In this document: positions 1,488 through 47,156 of the stretch, in pieces
Numbering within the stretch: the first letter of the stretch is position 1
How the letters are laid out: every line of letters starts with the position of its first letter
NCBI RefSeq assembly: GCF_000430585.1
Contig: NZ_AUMH01000002.1
Span: 1-64,000, forward strand
DNA from: Alicyclobacillus herbarius DSM 13609
GTDB taxonomy: Bacteria > Bacillota > Bacilli > Alicyclobacillales > Alicyclobacillaceae
Direction: 5' to 3'
DNA: 64,000 bases
Made by a program: the position numbers and the translations under genes
Notes under the pieces: generated by a model
Databases searched by the model: none
What the model was told of the DNA's origin: nothing
Seen by the model: the letters and a program-made list of their open reading frames with translations, nothing else

Positions 1488-1633
1488 CGATGCATCTCTC
1501 CTTCGAACTGCTGAGGTCTGCCAATATGGTTGAATATGGATATTGTTCCGGGCGGATCGAACGTTTATGCAAGGGCCAGGAATGCAAACACGTCTGGATT
1601 GTGCCATAATGGGCGCAGCAGGGAGGGACAGAC

Positions 1634-2173
1634 ATGGCAGAAAGCACAAATAATGCGCAGCTTGCGACCTTTGCCGGCGGTTGCTTTTGGTGCATGGTCA
1701 AGCCGTTCGAGGAGCAGCCCGGCATCTTGAAGGTTGTCTCTGGATATACCGGCGGCCACAAGGAAAACCCGACGTATGAAGAGGTCTGTTCCGGCACTAC
1801 GGGACACGTCGAGGCCGTGCAGATTACGTTTGATCCGTCCGTATTTCCTTACGAGCGGCTGCTTGAGCTGTATTGGCAGCAGATTGATCCGACCGACGAA
1901 GGGGGTCAATTTGTCGACAGGGGGTCTTCGTATCGGACGGCCATCTTCTACCACAATGAAGAGCAACGCCAGCAGGCGGAGGCTTCCAAGCAGGCACTGG
2001 CAGCCAGCGGCCGCTTCGAGAAGCCGATTGTGGTGCCGATTTTGCCTGCCGGCCCGTTCTACCCGGCGGAGGACTACCACCAGGGGTTCTACCGCAAAAA
2101 TCCGGAGCACTACCACCGCTACCGGTCTTCTTCCGGGCGCGACGAATTCCTCGCGAAACACTGGAACAAATAA
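1634..2173 (+). CDS. msrA: Peptide methionine-S-sulfoxide reductase MsrA
   Basis: The 179-residue cytoplasmic protein reduces the S epimer of methionine sulfoxide in damaged proteins, using thioredoxin as electron donor. The hallmark GCFWC motif is at residues 16-20 with the catalytic cysteine at 17. The conserved [21 protein letters not shown] block and the YHQGFY segment near the C terminus are also present. Length is normal for a stand-alone MsrA; no MsrB domain is fused. The ATG has a GGGAGGG ribosome site about six bases upstream. The gene stands alone between two minus-strand genes. Confidence 0.96.
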
Positions 2174-2209
2174 CCGCAACCGTGTGACTACCGCGCGTTG
2201 TGGCATCGC

Positions 2210-2803
2210 TTACTGCGGCGAGGTCTCCGGCCCGGGCGCCGGTTCGTACAGCATGGCCATCAGGAAGGTGCAGTCCATATCGGCGGCTGGATTGTGATAC
2301 GTATGGGGGGCGTCTGCGATAAAGTGGGCGGCATCCCCGGCTTCCAATTGAAGCGTATCCCCCAGCAGACTGAGCACCAGCTTGCCCGATAACACCCAAA
2401 TCGCTTCGCGCACGTGCGTCCCGTGTTTCTCCGCGACGTGTCTGGTGAGCGGTGCGAGGCGGGCTTGGTACAGCTCCAGCGGGTGCGTAGCGGGGACGGT
2501 CAACCCGTTCTGCACCGTGTATCGGCCCTCATCATCCGCGACAACGGGCTGATCCGCACGTCGGACGACGGTCACGGCTGGCCGTTCGACGTCCTGCAGC
2601 AGTGCCGAGAACGGGACGCGCAGCCCTTGCGCCACCTTCCACAAGGTAACCACCGTCGCGTTCGATTCACCGCGTTCGATTTGTCCGAGCATCGGTTTGC
2701 TGACGCCACTGGCCGCGGCCAGCTCATCGAGGGACCATCCCCGCTGCCGGCGTAGGCGCCGCAGGGACTGTCCGATGCGCAGCGGCAGTTTCTCCGCGTC
2801 CAC
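2210..2803 (-). CDS. XRE-family regulator with C-terminal cupin domain
   Basis: The 197-residue protein has an N-terminal helix-turn-helix of the XRE type (residues about 11-65, including SLDELAAASGVSKPMLGQIERG) and a C-terminal cupin barrel (about 110-185) that probably senses a small ligand. Start is GTG with GGAGGG six bases upstream. It is divergent from azlD-azlC with only about 80 bases between, an arrangement common for cupin-type regulators of AzlCD branched-chain amino acid exporters. Inference: it represses or activates azlDC, and probably itself, in response to an amino acid or analogue. Confidence 0.85.
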   Translation of the reverse strand: MDAEKLPLRIGQSLRRLRRQRGWSLDELAAASGVSKPMLGQIERGESNATVVTLWKVAQGLRVPFSALLQDVERPAVTVVRRADQPVVADDEGRYTVQNGLTVPATHPLELYQARLAPLTRHVAEKHGTHVREAIWVLSGKLVLSLLGDTLQLEAGDAAHFIADAPHTYHNPAADMDCTFLMAMLYEPAPGPETSPQ

Positions 2804-2828
2804 GTTATTCCCTCCGTTTTCGTCTTCG

Positions 2829-2869
2829 CGTATACTATAACATACGAACGGATGATATATGATACGAAG
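2829..2869. promoter_or_regulatory. Candidate operator between the XRE-cupin gene and azlDC
   Basis: The divergent intergenic region holds an inverted repeat CGTAT (2829-2833) / ATACG (2842-2846). A direct repeat ATACGAA occurs at 2842-2848 and again at 2863-2869, one full 21-base step (two helical turns) apart. This spacing suits a dimeric or tetrameric regulator binding one face of the DNA. Binding by the adjacent XRE-cupin protein is inference only. Confidence 0.4.
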
Positions 2870-2882
2870 CGAGGGGAAGGCT

Positions 2883-3206
2883 TTGCATTCGCTGGCCTGG
2901 GAAGTCTTGTGTGTGGGCCTTGGGACTTATTTGATTCGGGCGGTGTCGCTTAGTTGGGGCAGTCGCGTGGTCTGGCCAGGCTGGCTAAAGCGGGTGCTGG
3001 CGTACCTCACGCCGGCGGTGCTCGGGGCACTGGTCGGGCCGATGCTGTTTCCATCGGATAGCAGTCTCGCATTCTGGGAAAGCCCGGCTTTGTGGGCGGC
3101 CGTACCGACCGTCATTGTGGCCTGGTGGACGCGGCAGTTGTTTTGGACGATTGGTGCCGGGGTGGCTGCGTATGCACTGGCTCGCGGACTGGCAGGGCTA
3201 TGGTAA
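2883..3206 (+). CDS. azlD: AzlD-family branched-chain amino acid exporter small subunit
   Basis: This small, very hydrophobic protein (about 107 residues, four likely membrane segments) matches AzlD: GTYLIRAVSL near the start, VLAYLTPAVLGALVGP in the middle and AVPTVIVAWWTRQLFWT later. With AzlC it forms the membrane exporter for branched-chain amino acids and toxic analogues such as azaleucine. I prefer the TTG at 2883, which follows GAGGGGAAGG, over an ATG at 2859 that has no ribosome site and overlaps the promoter region. It is followed after seven bases by azlC. The usual order is azlC then azlD; here it is reversed. Confidence 0.8.
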   Translation: MHSLAWEVLCVGLGTYLIRAVSLSWGSRVVWPGWLKRVLAYLTPAVLGALVGPMLFPSDSSLAFWESPALWAAVPTVIVAWWTRQLFWTIGAGVAAYALARGLAGLW

Positions 3207-3218
3207 GGGGGAGTGGTG

Positions 3219-4025
3219 ATGGCGAGAGGCGCGGTGCCCACGTATAGCGGGTATCGAGATCGACTTGTGGTTGTGGGTCAACAGGTAGCCGCTGGCGTGC
3301 GCGACGGTGTCCCCATTATCGTCGCGTATTTCCCGGTGGCGGTAACCTTTGGTGTCGTCTGTTCCGCCAGCGGACTGCCGCGGTTGCTCGGCTTTCTCAT
3401 CTCTGTCCTTGTCTACGCCGGTGGAGCCCAGTTTATGTTGGTTAGTCTCGCCGTCGCGGGTGTCCCGTGGCTGCCAGCCACCGCCACCGTGTTGTTGGTC
3501 AACCTGCGTCACTTCCTCTACGGTGCCGCCCTGGGTCCGTCGCTAAACCGGTGGCCAGAACGATGGCGCTTGATTGCCGCCTTTGGGTTGACGGACGAGG
3601 TGTTCGCCATGGCCTCGGGGCGCATCCGCAGTGAAATCCCAACGCCGCCTCGGCATCTGGCGCTGACCTTCGCCTGCTACGCATCCTGGCTGGCGGGGAC
3701 CGCAGTCGGCCTGGAGGTGGGGGCGATTGTGCCGAGCCCCGTGGCTGACGTTCTCGGCTTCGCGCTGCCCGCCTTGTTCCTAGCGCTGATTCTGCTTGGG
3801 GAACGGACCCCTGCCCACCTGTTGGCTGCGCTGTTTGGGGCGCTGGCGGCAGTGGCCGCTACCCACCTCCATCTTGGCAGCTTTGCCGTCTTGCTTGGCG
3901 CGGGGGTGGGCGCGCTGGCCGGATGCCTAATCTCCGTCTGGCAGGAGACCCGTTCGCGCGCACCGACGCTTACGGAATCTCATACGACCCTGGAATCCCA
4001 GCCGAACGCCGAATCCCAGCATTGA
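3219..4025 (+). CDS. azlC: AzlC-family branched-chain amino acid exporter large subunit
   Basis: The product is about 268 residues with several hydrophobic segments. It carries the AzlC signature regions: GVPIIVAYFPVAVTFGVVCSASGL near residue 25, YAGGAQFMLVSL, and a NLRHFLYGAALGP motif. It is the larger partner of AzlD in a two-component inner-membrane exporter. ATG 3219 is preferred over the two GTG codons just before it because GGGGGA lies six bases upstream. It overlaps no neighbour and closes the azlDC operon controlled from the divergent XRE-cupin gene. Confidence 0.88.
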   Translation: MARGAVPTYSGYRDRLVVVGQQVAAGVRDGVPIIVAYFPVAVTFGVVCSASGLPRLLGFLISVLVYAGGAQFMLVSLAVAGVPWLPATATVLLVNLRHFLYGAALGPSLNRWPERWRLIAAFGLTDEVFAMASGRIRSEIPTPPRHLALTFACYASWLAGTAVGLEVGAIVPSPVADVLGFALPALFLALILLGERTPAHLLAALFGALAAVAATHLHLGSFAVLLGAGVGALAGCLISVWQETRSRAPTLTESHTTLESQPNAESQH

Positions 4026-4195
4026 CCGGCTGCATATTTCCGCTTTTTCGATGGCTTGTTGCTTAATGGCTGCCTGCGACGCACGTGAGAAACCCCATGC
4101 CATCTCAATCTGGACCCCTGTCTCATGGACATCCACCGCCCCGTCTGTGCGGCGCGTCGCGTACCCTGAAGGAACACGAGATGGGGGGTGATTCC

Positions 4196-4525
4196 ATGTG
4201 CACCAGGCACGACTGTGAGCGGTATGTTGGACAGTGGGTGCAGTTTCAGACCCCGTACGGTGTGCACCGCGGCATCGTGGAACGGGTGACGCCGCGGCAT
4301 GCTATTGTCCTGTCACCTCGTCGATACATCCCGGCGCAGTTCGCCACAGAGACGCTTCCTGCGGAGGACGTCAAGCGAATCGATGCCGTTCTCGCCGCCG
4401 GGTATGGCCCTTACGGCCCTTACGCCGGGGGTTACGGACGGGGATATCCGGGCGCTTTCTGGGGCCGTTGGGCCGTATCTTTCCTTATCATTTACGCGTT
4501 GTTCGGACTCGGATTTTGGTGGTAG
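4196..4525 (+). CDS. Small hypothetical protein with Gly/Tyr-rich C terminus
   Basis: I do not recognise this 109-residue protein. The first 60 residues look like a compact folded domain (a C-x4-C pair near the N terminus, then VQFQTPYGVHRGIVERVTP). They are followed by a glycine- and tyrosine-rich linker (GYGPYGPYAGGYGRGYPG) and a hydrophobic C-terminal segment rich in aromatic residues, a likely membrane anchor. Gly/Tyr-rich tails of this kind are frequent in spore-coat and envelope proteins of Bacilli, so a surface role is a guess. ATG 4196 has GGGGGGTG five bases upstream. A hairpin terminator follows. Confidence 0.6.
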   Translation: MCTRHDCERYVGQWVQFQTPYGVHRGIVERVTPRHAIVLSPRRYIPAQFATETLPAEDVKRIDAVLAAGYGPYGPYAGGYGRGYPGAFWGRWAVSFLIIYALFGLGFWW

Positions 4526-4580
4526 TTCCCCGGCTTAAGATCACTTTCCCGCTGAACGAGAAAAATACGCCATACGTTTT

Positions 4581-4613
4581 CGAGAGCCGCATCCGCCAGC
4601 GGCTCTCGGTTTG
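4581..4613 (+). terminator. Hairpin terminator after the 4196-4525 gene
   Basis: A perfect 10-bp stem, CGAGAGCCGC (4581-4590) with GCGGCTCTCG (4599-4608), closes an 8-base loop and is followed by a modest T-rich stretch. It separates the small hypothetical gene from the glycerol operon promoter. Confidence 0.7.
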
Positions 4614-4685
4614 TGTGCCCGGCATGCGAGAGGACGAGGGCTAGCCTCACTCCCACTCGAACCCCATAACCGGGCTCTTTCCGTT

Positions 4686-4723
4686 TGCAAGCGCTTTACT
4701 TCTTCTAGGAACACCCGTATAAT
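4686..4723 (+). promoter_or_regulatory. glpFK promoter with overlapping CcpA cre box
   Basis: A -35-like TTTACT (4695-4700) and a perfect TATAAT -10 (4718-4723) are separated by 17 bases. The sequence TGCAAGCGCTTTAC (4686-4699) fits the catabolite-responsive element consensus and overlaps the -35 hexamer, so CcpA binding would block polymerase. Carbon catabolite repression of glpFK by CcpA is known in Bacillus; here it is inferred from the site. Confidence 0.75.
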
Positions 4724-4763
4724 CAATCCATAGCAAGTTGATACGATGCCACGGAGATGTTGG

Positions 4764-4822
4764 AGACGGCACCTGTGAAGTTGGGAAATCCCTTCTTCGC
4801 GAGGAGGCCGTCTTTTTCTTTT
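4764..4822 (+). terminator. Leader terminator of glpFK, likely GlpP-controlled
   Basis: In the untranslated leader, AGACGGC (4764-4770) pairs with GCCGTCT (4807-4813), with further pairing inside (CCT..GAAG against CTTCGCGAGG), followed directly by TTTTTCTTTT. This is an intrinsic terminator ahead of glpF. In B. subtilis GlpP with glycerol-3-phosphate binds such leaders and prevents termination. A glpP gene is present downstream in this window, which supports the same mechanism. Confidence 0.8.
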
Positions 4823-4996
4823 CAAGCTTCGACAAGGGGGGAGGTTGTGACTTTATTGGGGTGGACTGTCGTTCGATTTCCTTTGCTGTCGTTGGACGTT
4901 ACAACTCCGGCGCCTATTTCTGGTGCAGAGAGTACTCGGCCGAGGTATATCGGTTTGAGTCATGAGCATTAACACATAGGTACAGGGGGGTTACTG

Positions 4997-27964: not shown

Positions 27965-28014
27965 CCGCCCGTTCCTATGTCTGTGCATGTAGTGTCTATA
28001 TTCTCAACGACAGC

Positions 28015-28043
28015 TTGCGCGGCACTATATCTAGTGGTATACT
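28015..28043 (+). promoter_or_regulatory. Promoter of the riboswitch-nrdAB transcript
   Basis: TTGCGC (28015-28020) and TATACT (28038-28043) are separated by 17 bases. Transcription would start about 20-25 bases before the cobalamin aptamer, giving a leader of nearly 700 bases ahead of nrdA. Confidence 0.65.
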
Positions 28044-28069
28044 CGGACTGCAAAATTATATAGCATACT

Positions 28070-28246
28070 GAGTCTCTGGTGCCCACTTGGGCTGAAAAGG
28101 GAATCCGGTGCAAATCCGGAACGGTCCCGCCGCGGTGAGGGTGGAGGCGATGGCCGATGCGGAGCGCACAGCCGCTCCGGCCACTCGACAGGAGTCGGGG
28201 AAGGCAGGTCCTGGTCCATGAAACCCAAGTCCGAAGACCTGCCAGG
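28070..28246 (+). ncRNA. Cobalamin (adenosylcobalamin-type) riboswitch
   Basis: The conserved core is easy to read: GGTGCC near 28079, AAAAGGGAATCCGGTGCAAA (28095-28114), GGAACGGTCCCGCCGCGGTGA, the GCCACTCG box near 28179, GGAAGGCAGG near 28199 and finally AAGTCCGAAGACCTGCC. The closing arms CAGGTCCTGG / CAGG lie at the end. When adenosylcobalamin binds, downstream expression is normally turned off. The first gene downstream is class I ribonucleotide reductase, a B12-independent enzyme, so this is a B12-off switch. Confidence 0.95.
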
Positions 28247-28556
28247 GCTCGTGCCCAGCGAAATCTCTCACGCGGATGGGAGAGGGCGGAAACGTGACGA
28301 TAGGCCGTGCAGCTTGCGAGCCGGGGGTCAACAGGCTTGAACGGATCGAACCGGCTCGAGTTTGGTCGTCTGGCGGCAGGTCGTCTGACCTGTTGCTTGC
28401 ACCTTTGGCCGAAAGAGGCCGCTCGGTTGGATTCTGGTAACGGTTGGCACCCTCCGAGCTGCCGTACAGATAACGCGCACGGACGAAACACGCCTCGACG
28501 CGAGGGGGTCATCTGTGCCTGCAAAGCCGAACGCCCCCGTATGACTGTGTCACTAT

Positions 28557-28588
28557 CCCCCTCTCCCGCGTGGGAGACGGGGGTTTTT
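28557..28588 (+). terminator. Leader terminator upstream of nrdA
   Basis: CCCCCTCTCCC (28557-28567) pairs with GGGAGA and GGGGG (28572-28583, one bulged C) and is followed by TTTTT. An upstream CGCCCCCGT (28532-28540) is complementary to the right arm and could form an antiterminator. It probably serves as the expression platform of the cobalamin riboswitch although about 310 bases separate them. Confidence 0.75.
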
Positions 28589-28745
28589 CGCGTGGCTGGG
28601 AGCGGGCCGGCATGCTCTGCAAAGGCAGGCGCAGCAAAGGCAGCGTGTTCGGACGAGACGCCAGGTGGAGTCAGCCGGCGGGATCGAATACTTCGAGAAA
28701 ACACCGAAATCAAGCCACACATCACGTTGAGGGAGAGGATGTTCG

Positions 28746-31019
28746 ATGCCGCAAAATACGACCCTGCCGCGTCCCGTCCATACTGACGCTGCCATCGAAG
28801 CAATCGAGGGGATTCCGGCCGAGCTGGTCACGCTTGTTCACGCTGCCTGCGATGCGTGTCCTGCTTGCCAACCGCAGGCGTTATGGCCGCTTTTGCGCGC
28901 CCAGGCGCCTATTCAGGGGTCTCTCGATGCCTGGTTGGCGGTCGCCACACAAACCGCGGTCGAGCAGACGTCGGTCGAGGAGCCGGACTGGCAGTACGTG
29001 GCCGCCCGCCTGCTCCTCTACCGGAGTCGGCGCCAGGTGCGCGAAAACCGCGAACGTGCTGGCATCCCCGGTGAGGCCTACGAAAACTTTGCCGGGCTGA
29101 TTCGACACCTCGAGCACTTGGGCCGTTACGGCGCGTACATCCGCGAGACGTACGCAGAAGCCGAGATTGCCGAGCTGGAGGCGTACATCAAGCCGGAGCG
29201 GGACTTTTTGTTTACGTATGTCGGCTTGAAACAGCTGCTGGATAGGTACGTGATTCGCGGCCTGGATGGGGAGCTGCTCGAGCTGCCGCAGGAATTGTTT
29301 ATGGGCGTCGCCATGCACCTGGCCTTGGGCGAAGTAGACAGGGTGCGGCGGGCCAAGGAGTTCTACGACGTCCTCTCCAGCCTGAAAATGACAGTCGCTA
29401 CCCCGACCCTGAGCAACGCGCGCAAGCGGCACCACCAGCTCAGCTCGTGCTTCATCGACATGCCAGAGGACGATTTAATCAGCATCTACGAGACGGACAA
29501 GGCGTTTGCTCGCGTTTCCAAACACGGCGGCGGGATGGGCATCTACGTCGGAAAAATCCGCTCCCGCGGCGCCGCCATCCGCGGCTACAAAGGGGCCAGC
29601 GGGGGCGTCATTCCGTGGATTAAGAACTACAACAACACCGCCGTCAGCTGCAATCAGCTGGGCATGCGCCAGGGAGCGGCGGCCATTTACCTGGACGTGT
29701 GGCACAAGGACATCCTCGACTTTTTACAGCTGCGCACCAACAACGGTGACGAGCGGATGAAGGCGCACGACATCTTCCCTGCGGTCTGCGTCCCGGACGA
29801 ATTCATGCGCCGGGTGGAGCGGCGCGAGGCTTGGTACCTGTTCTGTCCGCACGAGGTGGAACAGGTGATGGGTTTCCGCCTCGAAGACAGCTGGGGCGAG
29901 GAGTTTGAACGCCGCTACCAGGCGTGCATTGACAATTCGCAACTGGACCGAGTAGAGGTCCCGGCCATCGACGTGATGCGCCGCATCCTCCAGTCCGCCT
30001 TTGAGACCGGCACACCGTTTGTGTTTTTCCGCGACACCGCCAACCGGATGAACCCCAACAAGCATGCCGGCATGGTCTATTGCAGCAACCTGTGCACCGA
30101 GATTGTCCAGAACATGAGCCCCATGCAGGTGGTCGAGGAGACGACCGAAGACGGCGACATCGTCATCCGCTACCATGCCGGCGACTTTGTCGTCTGCAAC
30201 CTGTCTTCGCTCAACCTCGGGCGCTGCGAGGATTTGGCCGACATCGAGCGGGTGGTGGAACGCCAGGTGCGGATGCTCGATAACGTCATTGACCAGAACG
30301 AATACCCGGTGCCGCAGGCGAAAATCACCAACCAGCGCTACCGCGCCGTGGGACTCGGCATCAGTGGCTACCATCAGTACCTGGCCGAGCGGGGAATCCA
30401 GTGGGAGTCGGAGGAACACCTGAAGGCGGTGGACGAGCTGTTCGAGTGGATCAACTTCTTTGCGATCCGCACGTCTATGCGCCTGGCTCAGGAGAAGGGG
30501 GCGTACCCGCTGTTTGCGGGGTCAGACTGGCAGACGGGGGCCTACTTTGACTTGCGCGGCTACCACTCGCGCCCGGGCGGCCCGGACTGGGACGGCCTGC
30601 GTCAGGACGTGGCTCGCTTCGGCCTGCGCAACGGGTACCTGTTTGCCGTCGCGCCGACTAGCAGCACCAGCCTGATTGCCGGGAGCACCGCCGGGATAGA
30701 TCCGGTCTTCGCCCGCTTCTTCCTCGAAGAGAAGAAGAACGGTGTCGTCCCTCAGACCGCGCCCAACCTGAACGAGCGGACGTTCTGGTACTACAAGGAG
30801 GCACACACCATCGACCAAACTTGGAGCATTCGGGCGGCGGCGGTGCGCCAGCGCCACATCGACCAATCACAGTCGTTCAACCTGTACATCACGCCCGACA
30901 TCCACGTCCGCGACTTTCTCGACCTGTACCTTAAGGCGTGGAGGTTGGGCCTCAAGACCATCTACTACGTCCGCAACAAGTCGCTGGAAGTGGAAGATTG
31001 CGCCGCATGCTCGGCGTAA
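28746..31019 (+). CDS. nrdA: Class I ribonucleotide reductase large subunit NrdA
   Basis: The 757-residue subunit reduces ribonucleoside diphosphates to deoxy forms. The active-site cysteine region QLSSCFIDMP lies near residue 235, the radical-site motif YCSNLCTEIVQNMSP near 450, NLSSLNLGR follows, and the C-terminal tail ends CAACSA, carrying the redox-active cysteine pair recharged by thioredoxin or glutaredoxin. YYVRNKSLE supplies the tyrosine pair of the radical pathway. A classical ATP-cone is not obvious in the first 90 residues. ATG 28746 follows GGGAGAGG. nrdB follows after about 150 bases; both lie under the cobalamin riboswitch. Confidence 0.93.
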   Translation: MPQNTTLPRPVHTDAAIEAIEGIPAELVTLVHAACDACPACQPQALWPLLRAQAPIQGSLDAWLAVATQTAVEQTSVEEPDWQYVAARLLLYRSRRQVRENRERAGIPGEAYENFAGLIRHLEHLGRYGAYIRETYAEAEIAELEAYIKPERDFLFTYVGLKQLLDRYVIRGLDGELLELPQELFMGVAMHLALGEVDRVRRAKEFYDVLSSLKMTVATPTLSNARKRHHQLSSCFIDMPEDDLISIYETDKAFARVSKHGGGMGIYVGKIRSRGAAIRGYKGASGGVIPWIKNYNNTAVSCNQLGMRQGAAAIYLDVWHKDILDFLQLRTNNGDERMKAHDIFPAVCVPDEFMRRVERREAWYLFCPHEVEQVMGFRLEDSWGEEFERRYQACIDNSQLDRVEVPAIDVMRRILQSAFETGTPFVFFRDTANRMNPNKHAGMVYCSNLCTEIVQNMSPMQVVEETTEDGDIVIRYHAGDFVVCNLSSLNLGRCEDLADIERVVERQVRMLDNVIDQNEYPVPQAKITNQRYRAVGLGISGYHQYLAERGIQWESEEHLKAVDELFEWINFFAIRTSMRLAQEKGAYPLFAGSDWQTGAYFDLRGYHSRPGGPDWDGLRQDVARFGLRNGYLFAVAPTSSTSLIAGSTAGIDPVFARFFLEEKKNGVVPQTAPNLNERTFWYYKEAHTIDQTWSIRAAAVRQRHIDQSQSFNLYITPDIHVRDFLDLYLKAWRLGLKTIYYVRNKSLEVEDCAACSA

Positions 31020-31171
31020 GTACCCGGTGCTGGGCGTGGCTCCGCTACCCATAGGTCTAAGTTCGGCGACCGTTCGGCGTGAGCGGTGCGGCCATCGTCC
31101 GCGCGGCGCGCCGGCGCGTCAGCTCGTGAATTTTTGATACAAAGAGACGGAGTGGAGGGACCAGACAAACC

Positions 31172-32209
31172 ATGCAATTGGAACGGACGAAACTGTTCAA
31201 CGAAGCGGGTGAGCGGGACTGGGGCAAGCGACGCATCATCGGCGGCAACACCACCAACCTGATTGAGCTGAACAACGTCAAGTACGAGTGGGCATACCGG
31301 ATGTACCGGGCGATGATGAGCAACTTCTGGATTCCCGAGGAGATTGCCCTGGCTGATGACGCCCGCCAGTATGCGCAGCTCAGCCCTGGAGAGCAGCGGG
31401 CGTTCAACAAAATCCTGTCCTTTCTCATCTTCCTGGACAGCATCCAGACGCACAATTTGCCCAACATCAACGAATACATCACCGCGCCCGAGGTCAACCT
31501 GTGCCTGACCGTCCACGCCTTCCAGGAGGCGGTACACTCCCAGTCGTACGGGTACATCCTCGACTCGGTGGTGTCCGCTCAGGTGCGGGATCAAATCTAC
31601 AACGAGTGGCGAAACGACGAACACCTCTTGCGCCGCAACCAGTTCATCACTGACCGTTATGAGGAATTCATCGCCGACCCGACCGATCGCAACCTGGTCA
31701 AGACGGTGATGGCCAACTTTATCCTTGAGGGCGTCTACTTCTACTCCGGGTTTAGCTTCTTCTTCGCCCTCGGTCGTCAGGGCAAGATGCTCGGCACGGT
31801 GTCCGAGATCAAGTACATTCAGCGGGATGAACTGACGCACCTGGCCTTGTTCCGGCACATTTTCGAGGAGATTCGGCGGGAAAACCCGGATTTGGTGACG
31901 GACGCGTTGATTGAGGAGCTGCGGGCCATGATGGCGCAGGCCGTGGAACATGAAATCGCCTGGGGACAGTACGTGACGGCGGGGGAAATTGCCGGCCTCA
32001 GCGACTATTTGATTGACCGCTACATCAAGTACCTGGCTAACCAGCGGCTCAAATCCCTCGGACTGGAACCGTTGTACCCAGAGGTTACGGATCATCCCAT
32101 GCGCTGGGTCGATCAGTACGCCGCCATCAACTCGACCAAGACGGACTTCTTCGAGCAGAAGGTCACCAGCTACACCAAGGCGGCCAACCTCAATTGGGAC
32201 GAGCTGTGA
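31172..32209 (+). CDS. nrdB: Class I ribonucleotide reductase small subunit NrdB
   Basis: The 345-residue R2 subunit houses the di-metal centre and tyrosyl radical. Ligand residues are visible: Asp89 in FLIFLDSIQ, Glu119 and His122 in FQEAVHSQSYGYI, and the radical tyrosine at 126 in that same motif. Further ligands are in FILEGVYFYSGFSFFF and RDELTHLALF. The retained tyrosine argues against the Phe-type class Ic. No nrdI is adjacent, which favours class Ia rather than Ib. The ATG follows a GGAGGG site. It is the last gene of the riboswitch-controlled operon and is closed by a strong hairpin. Confidence 0.94.
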   Translation: MQLERTKLFNEAGERDWGKRRIIGGNTTNLIELNNVKYEWAYRMYRAMMSNFWIPEEIALADDARQYAQLSPGEQRAFNKILSFLIFLDSIQTHNLPNINEYITAPEVNLCLTVHAFQEAVHSQSYGYILDSVVSAQVRDQIYNEWRNDEHLLRRNQFITDRYEEFIADPTDRNLVKTVMANFILEGVYFYSGFSFFFALGRQGKMLGTVSEIKYIQRDELTHLALFRHIFEEIRRENPDLVTDALIEELRAMMAQAVEHEIAWGQYVTAGEIAGLSDYLIDRYIKYLANQRLKSLGLEPLYPEVTDHPMRWVDQYAAINSTKTDFFEQKVTSYTKAANLNWDEL

Positions 32210-46985: not shown

Positions 46986-47156
46986 GTCTCTCATCTCTCA
47001 GAATTGCTTCTGCAGGAGTTAGCACCGGGAAACGTACCCCTTGTCGCCGACCGGGAAGCCGCGAGCGCGTGCATCGCCGGACAGTCGGTGGGCAGGACGT
47101 TTCTGGTTGCCGGGCTTCATCGGGCCAGTCCCTCCGCCTACTCTTGATAAGAGAAC
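46986..47156 (-). ncRNA. SAM-I (S-box) riboswitch
   Basis: Read on the minus strand the leader has the S-box core: CTCTTATCAAGAG, then AGGCGGAGGGACTGGCCCGA and TGAAGCCCGGCAACC, a long variable arm, GGTGCTAACTCC, and the closing TTCTGAGAGATGAGAG that pairs back to the first arm. When SAM is plentiful the terminator downstream forms and metI-metH-yitJ are switched off. Confidence 0.96.

Follow-up and report, generated by a model that had tools for sequence, protein, structure and literature searches.

The stretch analyzed here (the window) is the first 64,000 nt of contig NZ_AUMH01000002.1 of Alicyclobacillus herbarius DSM 13609. On its forward strand lie the class I ribonucleotide reductase (RNR) genes nrdA and nrdB, behind a long leader that very probably acts as a repressing, transcription-terminating cobalamin (vitamin B12) riboswitch. 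The contig (C2) belongs to a genome of 3.3 Mb that is 99.97% complete, and the named species closest to it in NrdA are Alicyclobacillus shizuokensis (91%) and A. kakegawensis (90%). The features of the locus are as follows.

27980-27995, + strand: possible second NrdR box, weak (10/16), 42 bp upstream of the main box
28015-28020, + strand: putative -35 element TTGCGC, a weak match, 17-bp spacer to the -10 element
28022-28037, + strand: candidate NrdR box, a palindrome within the -35/-10 spacer, 13/16 to the assumed NrdR consensus
28038-28043, + strand: putative -10 element TATACT
28060-28260, + strand: cobalamin riboswitch aptamer, RF00174, 109.8 bits, full length over model positions 1-189
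28123-28132, + strand: L5 region GGTCCCGCCG, kissing-loop partner
28264-28283, + strand: P13 hairpin, with L13 = CGCGGA at 28271-28276, whose GCGG could pair with CCGC of L5
28277-28286, + strand: antiterminator strand complementary to the 5' arm of the terminator, made up of the P13 3' arm and GGG
28291-28556, + strand: spacer between P13 and the terminator, 266 nt, the longest of 27 leaders
28557-28588, + strand: intrinsic terminator, a GC-rich hairpin (28557-28583) followed by a run of five T (28584-28588)
28746-31019, + strand: nrdA, class I RNR large subunit, 757 aa (TIGR02506, 617 bits, cutoff 341)
31172-32209, + strand: nrdB, class I RNR small subunit, 345 aa (NF007184, 507 bits, cutoff 310)

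The RF00174 match, found by a covariance-model scan, stands well above the gathering score of the family (31.5 bits; E 1.3e-26) and confirms the cobalamin aptamer that an earlier note on this DNA had placed upstream of nrdA. The same note had named the downstream genes as class I nrdA and nrdB with a tyrosine at residue 126 of the small subunit (R2). This identification also held, as both proteins pass their NCBIfam cutoffs, the NrdA barrel and a ferritin-like NrdB with its motifs are present, and residue 126 is the tyrosine of an HSQSY motif. We take Tyr126 to be the radical site on the strength of this motif, and the carboxylate/histidine motifs and radical tyrosine of NrdB presumably correspond to those of E. 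coli R2.

Within the order, 59 genomes were compared, 27 of which encode a class I large subunit (28 loci). An RF00174 match was found upstream of 28/28 of these loci, namely that of the window, 26 fetched loci, and a second copy in genome G006, and the relatives' aptamers score 95-116 bits. The leader comparison comprised the window's leader and 26 homologous ones. All 27 share the same arrangement: downstream of the aptamer comes a P13 region whose loop reads CACG(A/C/G)GG, and after it a terminator, which was positioned by eye in L022, L033, and L034. L5 reads CCTCG in 24/27 leaders and L13 reads CGAGG in 24/27. In the window, both loops are changed, to CCCGC in L5 and GCGG in L13, but they are still pairable as judged by sequence complementarity. 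The P13 and terminator of the window are separate, non-overlapping hairpins, and the cognate duplex between the P13 3' side and the terminator 5' side has a predicted energy of -24.5 kcal/mol, ranking first among 27 pairings. When the platform of the window was folded without the aptamer, pairing of the P13 region with the terminator (20.8 expected pairs) beat P13 plus terminator by 9.8 kcal/mol.

Two of the 28 loci (L033 and L034, both from Alicyclobacillus genomes) have the cobalamin riboswitch in front of a class Ib operon in place of nrdAB. The large subunit of L033 is a class Ib NrdE (TIGR04170, 971 bits, cutoff 750), and its locus consists of the aptamer (677-875), an NrdI-like frame (1020-1403), NrdE (about 1501-3471), and an NrdF-like frame (3509-4564), the NrdI and NrdF identities having been read by eye from the flanking frames. 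L034 is nearly identical to L033 in leader and match. The riboswitch was presumably retained, or acquired anew, when one enzyme type replaced the other.

Two other loci with NrdA-like matches, partial in the case of L122, were considered as class I loci devoid of the switch and were rejected. Judged by reading its sequence, L122 (G025) holds an incomplete frame for a different type of RNR where the contig ends; L123 (G022) resembles NrdJ. By eye, L122 (G025:C13, 2046-3428, - strand) is a single frame in which the C-terminal part of a reductase runs into a threonine-synthase-like part, at the contig end and adjoining homoserine kinase and homoserine dehydrogenase frames; it is either a fusion or an assembly error. 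L123 (G022:C7, 1655-3901) encodes a second, diverged NrdJ-like reductase (51% to the main NrdJ across residues 594-872) and is possibly carried by a mobile element.

The promoter region holds a feature absent from the earlier note, the NrdR box. Scored against what we take to be the NrdR consensus, a box of at least 12/16 precedes the aptamer in 27/27 leaders. None of 200 mononucleotide shuffles scored as high as the box of the window, and with 200 shuffles per leader p was at most 0.01 in 25 leaders, L033 (p 0.035) and L034 (p 0.045) being marginal. The box is flanked by a TTG-type -35 and a TA-rich -10 element in 26/27 leaders; the exception is L032, in which the top-scoring box lies farther upstream and a weaker one (12/16) is closer to the aptamer. 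It should be noted that a simple consensus scan of the region listed no sigma-70 promoter, nor did it list the terminator at 28557-28588; the promoter and terminator calls rest on hairpin folding and on the comparison with the 26 homologous leaders. NrdR-regulated promoters normally carry two boxes in helical phase. NrdR is reported to require that the boxes be separated by a whole number of helical turns (PMC12051234). The weak second box of the window is unremarkable when taken alone (10/16 versus a shuffle average of 9.3). Over the 27 leaders, the mean box score peaks at an offset of -41 from the main box, and in many leaders a weak partner lies some 39-43 bp upstream; about 41 bp corresponds to four helical turns.

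The earlier note had also predicted a B12-dependent class II reductase elsewhere in the genome, and our search found it: nrdJ lies on contig C3 (TIGR02504, 536.6 bits, cutoff 399.95), directly downstream of nrdR (TIGR00244, 189.2 bits, cutoff 124.65), with two NrdR-like boxes (13/16 and 12/16) near the start of the nrdR frame. NrdJ is matched in 27/27 of the order genomes with a riboswitch locus, in 55/59 order genomes overall, and in 45/45 of those with a completeness of at least 90% and a contamination of at most 5%. The genome of A. herbarius has three cobalamin riboswitches in total. The second precedes metE, encoding the B12-independent methionine synthase (TIGR01371, 1050 bits), and the third precedes a btuFC-like ATP-binding cassette uptake pair, whose permease has BtuC as best match yet falls under the model cutoff and whose binding protein is assigned only generically. 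The regulon therefore brings together two B12-independent isozymes and a probable uptake system.

For the wider distribution, we used the best 80 of 410 NrdA relatives from a scan of an 84,980-species collection. Twelve of these 80 nrdA loci are from the order (largely species already in the 59-genome set) and 68 from outside it. A hidden Markov model (HMM) built from the 27 aptamers, which replaced a regular expression that missed known cases, found the aptamer at 12/12 of the in-order loci. Because this HMM could miss diverged aptamers, the 68 outside loci were rechecked with the Rfam model, 67 by whole-genome search (40 + 27) and L077 on the locus. For the whole-genome searches, riboswitch and nrdA coordinates were compared by hand without matching the contig numbers; L084, L106, L066, and L058 were additionally checked on their loci. 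This led to the rejection of riboswitches that lay near nrdA by coordinate in L084 and L106, as they are not on those loci. The aptamer was present at 7/68 outside loci, each confirmed by cmscan on the locus and all from Bacillales (Salipaludibacillus, Priestia megaterium, Anoxybacillus, Bacillus, Jeotgalibacillus, and two Paenibacillus); at the remaining 61/68, the Rfam model detected no aptamer before nrdA. In six of the seven, the aptamer-to-terminator distance is 49-109 nt, and in the seventh (L121) no terminator was found by script. In Paenibacillus alkalitolerans (L073), the interval between terminator and nrdA contains about ten tandem repeats of 50-70 nt with CCGG-type palindromes (about 4200-4830).

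Taken together, we consider that nrdAB is controlled by a repressing cobalamin riboswitch acting through transcription termination, with a probability of roughly 0.87. Transcription would start just upstream of the aptamer, from the promoter that has the NrdR box between its -35 and -10 elements. With a corrinoid bound, L5 would kiss L13, P13 would be stabilized, the terminator at 28557-28588 would form, and nrdAB would be turned off, leaving dNTPs (deoxyribonucleoside triphosphates) to be supplied by the B12-dependent NrdJ, its likely replacement. Without ligand, the P13 3' strand would pair with the terminator 5' arm as an antiterminator and nrdAB would be on; the choice between the two folds would be kinetic. 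NrdR would add nucleotide-sensing control at initiation. This scheme follows the Priestia megaterium metE riboswitch, in which ligand binding leads to kissing, P13 formation, termination, and shut-off, and absence of ligand to the antiterminator and expression, as tested by compensatory mutants (PMC10653944). The leader in the window fits its anatomy, with an L5 and L13 able to kiss, a P13 hairpin, and a 3' strand of P13 pairable with the terminator 5' arm, and differs from it in the target gene.

Several observations weigh against this scheme. Family-wide, cognate P13:terminator pairing compared with mismatched pairing gave a permutation p of 0.12 under our first definition, and the p of 0.015 obtained at clade level came from a second definition (terminator arm plus loop) that was picked afterwards. 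The minimum-energy fold of the platform alone does not contain the terminator in only 11/27 leaders, the terminator being retained in 16/27, both congeners included; the latter might reflect a switch near balance, which is no proof of one. In addition, among the 40 of the 68 outside-order genomes that were searched, nrdJ does not predict the riboswitch, as 24 of the 33 genomes without the riboswitch match NrdJ (one weakly), while 6/7 riboswitch genomes match it and one (G094) does not.

The spacer is the most atypical part of the leader. The long aptamer-terminator gap pointed out in the earlier note is real and extreme, measuring 296 nt from the aptamer end rather than the claimed 310 or so; between P13 and the terminator, the 266 nt of the window compare with 43-163 nt in the other 26 leaders and with 0-82 nt across the 38 corrinoid riboswitches surveyed in PMC10653944. 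The earlier note had suggested that the gap may hold another regulatory element. Such a length could mean that the spacer carries a second element acting with the B12 switch, for example a further aptamer, a leader peptide, or a protein-binding site. No such element was detected by conservation, Rfam search, or fold stability. An Rfam search of 28261-28745 up to E 10 placed no family in the spacer, its sole match being a chance hit to a long non-coding RNA downstream of it (28617-28745). Folding of the spacer showed no excess stability over shuffles (z -0.51), nor did that of the whole leader at 28250-28745 (z -0.97), and the spacer aligns poorly with both congeners, which have spacers shorter by about 100 nt. 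Since the spacer is single copy in the genome, its origin as a repeat or mobile element was rejected. A second sensor is thus without support, and we regard a second element as unlikely, leader peptides not having been searched for systematically. The spacer is most simply read as the apical part of the antiterminator arm, expanded specifically in this species; pairing of its ends did not exceed chance (p 0.17 in the window, family median p 0.14). There is a small chance that the 266 nt are a functional part of the switch, either as a long arm bringing P13 and the terminator together over more than the surveyed distances or as an unrecognized second input joining the B12 and NrdR control.

Less likely still is that the riboswitch is degenerate or constitutive in this species, the longer spacer and the altered L5 and L13 having uncoupled binding from termination. 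The departure of L5 (CCCG) from the family's CCTCG and the strong preference of the isolated platform for the antiterminator would fit this view. However, the aptamer scores within the range of its relatives, L13 has changed along with L5 such that its GCGG remains pairable with CCGC, UCCCG is itself the reported L5 consensus (PMC10653944), and the terminator is intact. Finally, corrinoid riboswitches of both signs exist (PMC10653944), and activation of nrdAB by corrinoid, as for the Alkalihalobacillus halodurans cobT riboswitch, is very improbable here, as in the cobT design P13 and the 5' arm of the terminator have sequence in common and exclude each other, whereas P13 and terminator are separate hairpins in the window, and as the regulon logic (metE, uptake, and nrdAB beside nrdJ) predicts repression.

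Two other features of the window and its relatives were recorded. In the N-terminus of NrdA (28746-29200), the ATP-cone domain (Pfam PF03477) went undetected at E values up to 1. Among eight NrdAs scanned for this domain, four were over the Pfam cutoff, two were under it (including the congener L009), and two had none; the overall-activity site thus seems, from these sequences, to be decaying in some NrdA lineages. A SAM (S-adenosylmethionine) riboswitch (RF00162, 74.7 bits) lies on the - strand of the window at 46988-47153.

Riboswitch control of class I RNR has precedents. In Streptomyces coelicolor, nrdABS reportedly carries a cobalamin riboswitch through which B12 represses it (Borovok et al. 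2006, as cited in PMC4342826); this is likewise a class I RNR in an nrdJ host, in a different phylum. In Propionibacterium acnes, the nrdAB leader has a cobalamin riboswitch with apparent premature termination and an nrd-box over the promoter, with an nrdRJ operon elsewhere; it shares the riboswitch and nrd-box promoter layout with the window and differs in that it is from an Actinomycete, with an additional riboswitch-bearing nrdDG (PMC3848588). Closer to A. herbarius, also within Bacillota, Bacillus methanolicus MGA3 has the same element on the same two B12-independent targets, listed as (AdoCbl)-nrdAB and -metE (AdoCbl, adenosylcobalamin) from RNA-seq and prediction (PMC4342826, Table 4). 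A literature search that omitted most subscription journals found no paper on a cobalamin riboswitch, or on a riboswitch together with ribonucleotide reductase, in Alicyclobacillus. The statement in the earlier note that such a switch is unusual in a Firmicute was not borne out, given the 28/28 loci of the order, the 7/68 further nrdA loci, and the published B. methanolicus nrdAB.

The B12 wiring of nrdAB is therefore already known in other bacteria, and only the unusually long spacer stands out. The nrdAB riboswitch requires no new principle. Our results suggest that, throughout this order of Bacillota, class I RNR is under B12 control as a fixed trait rather than a rarity, and the 27 natural leaders, with spacers of 43-266 nt, form a test set for the distance that can be tolerated between P13 and the terminator.

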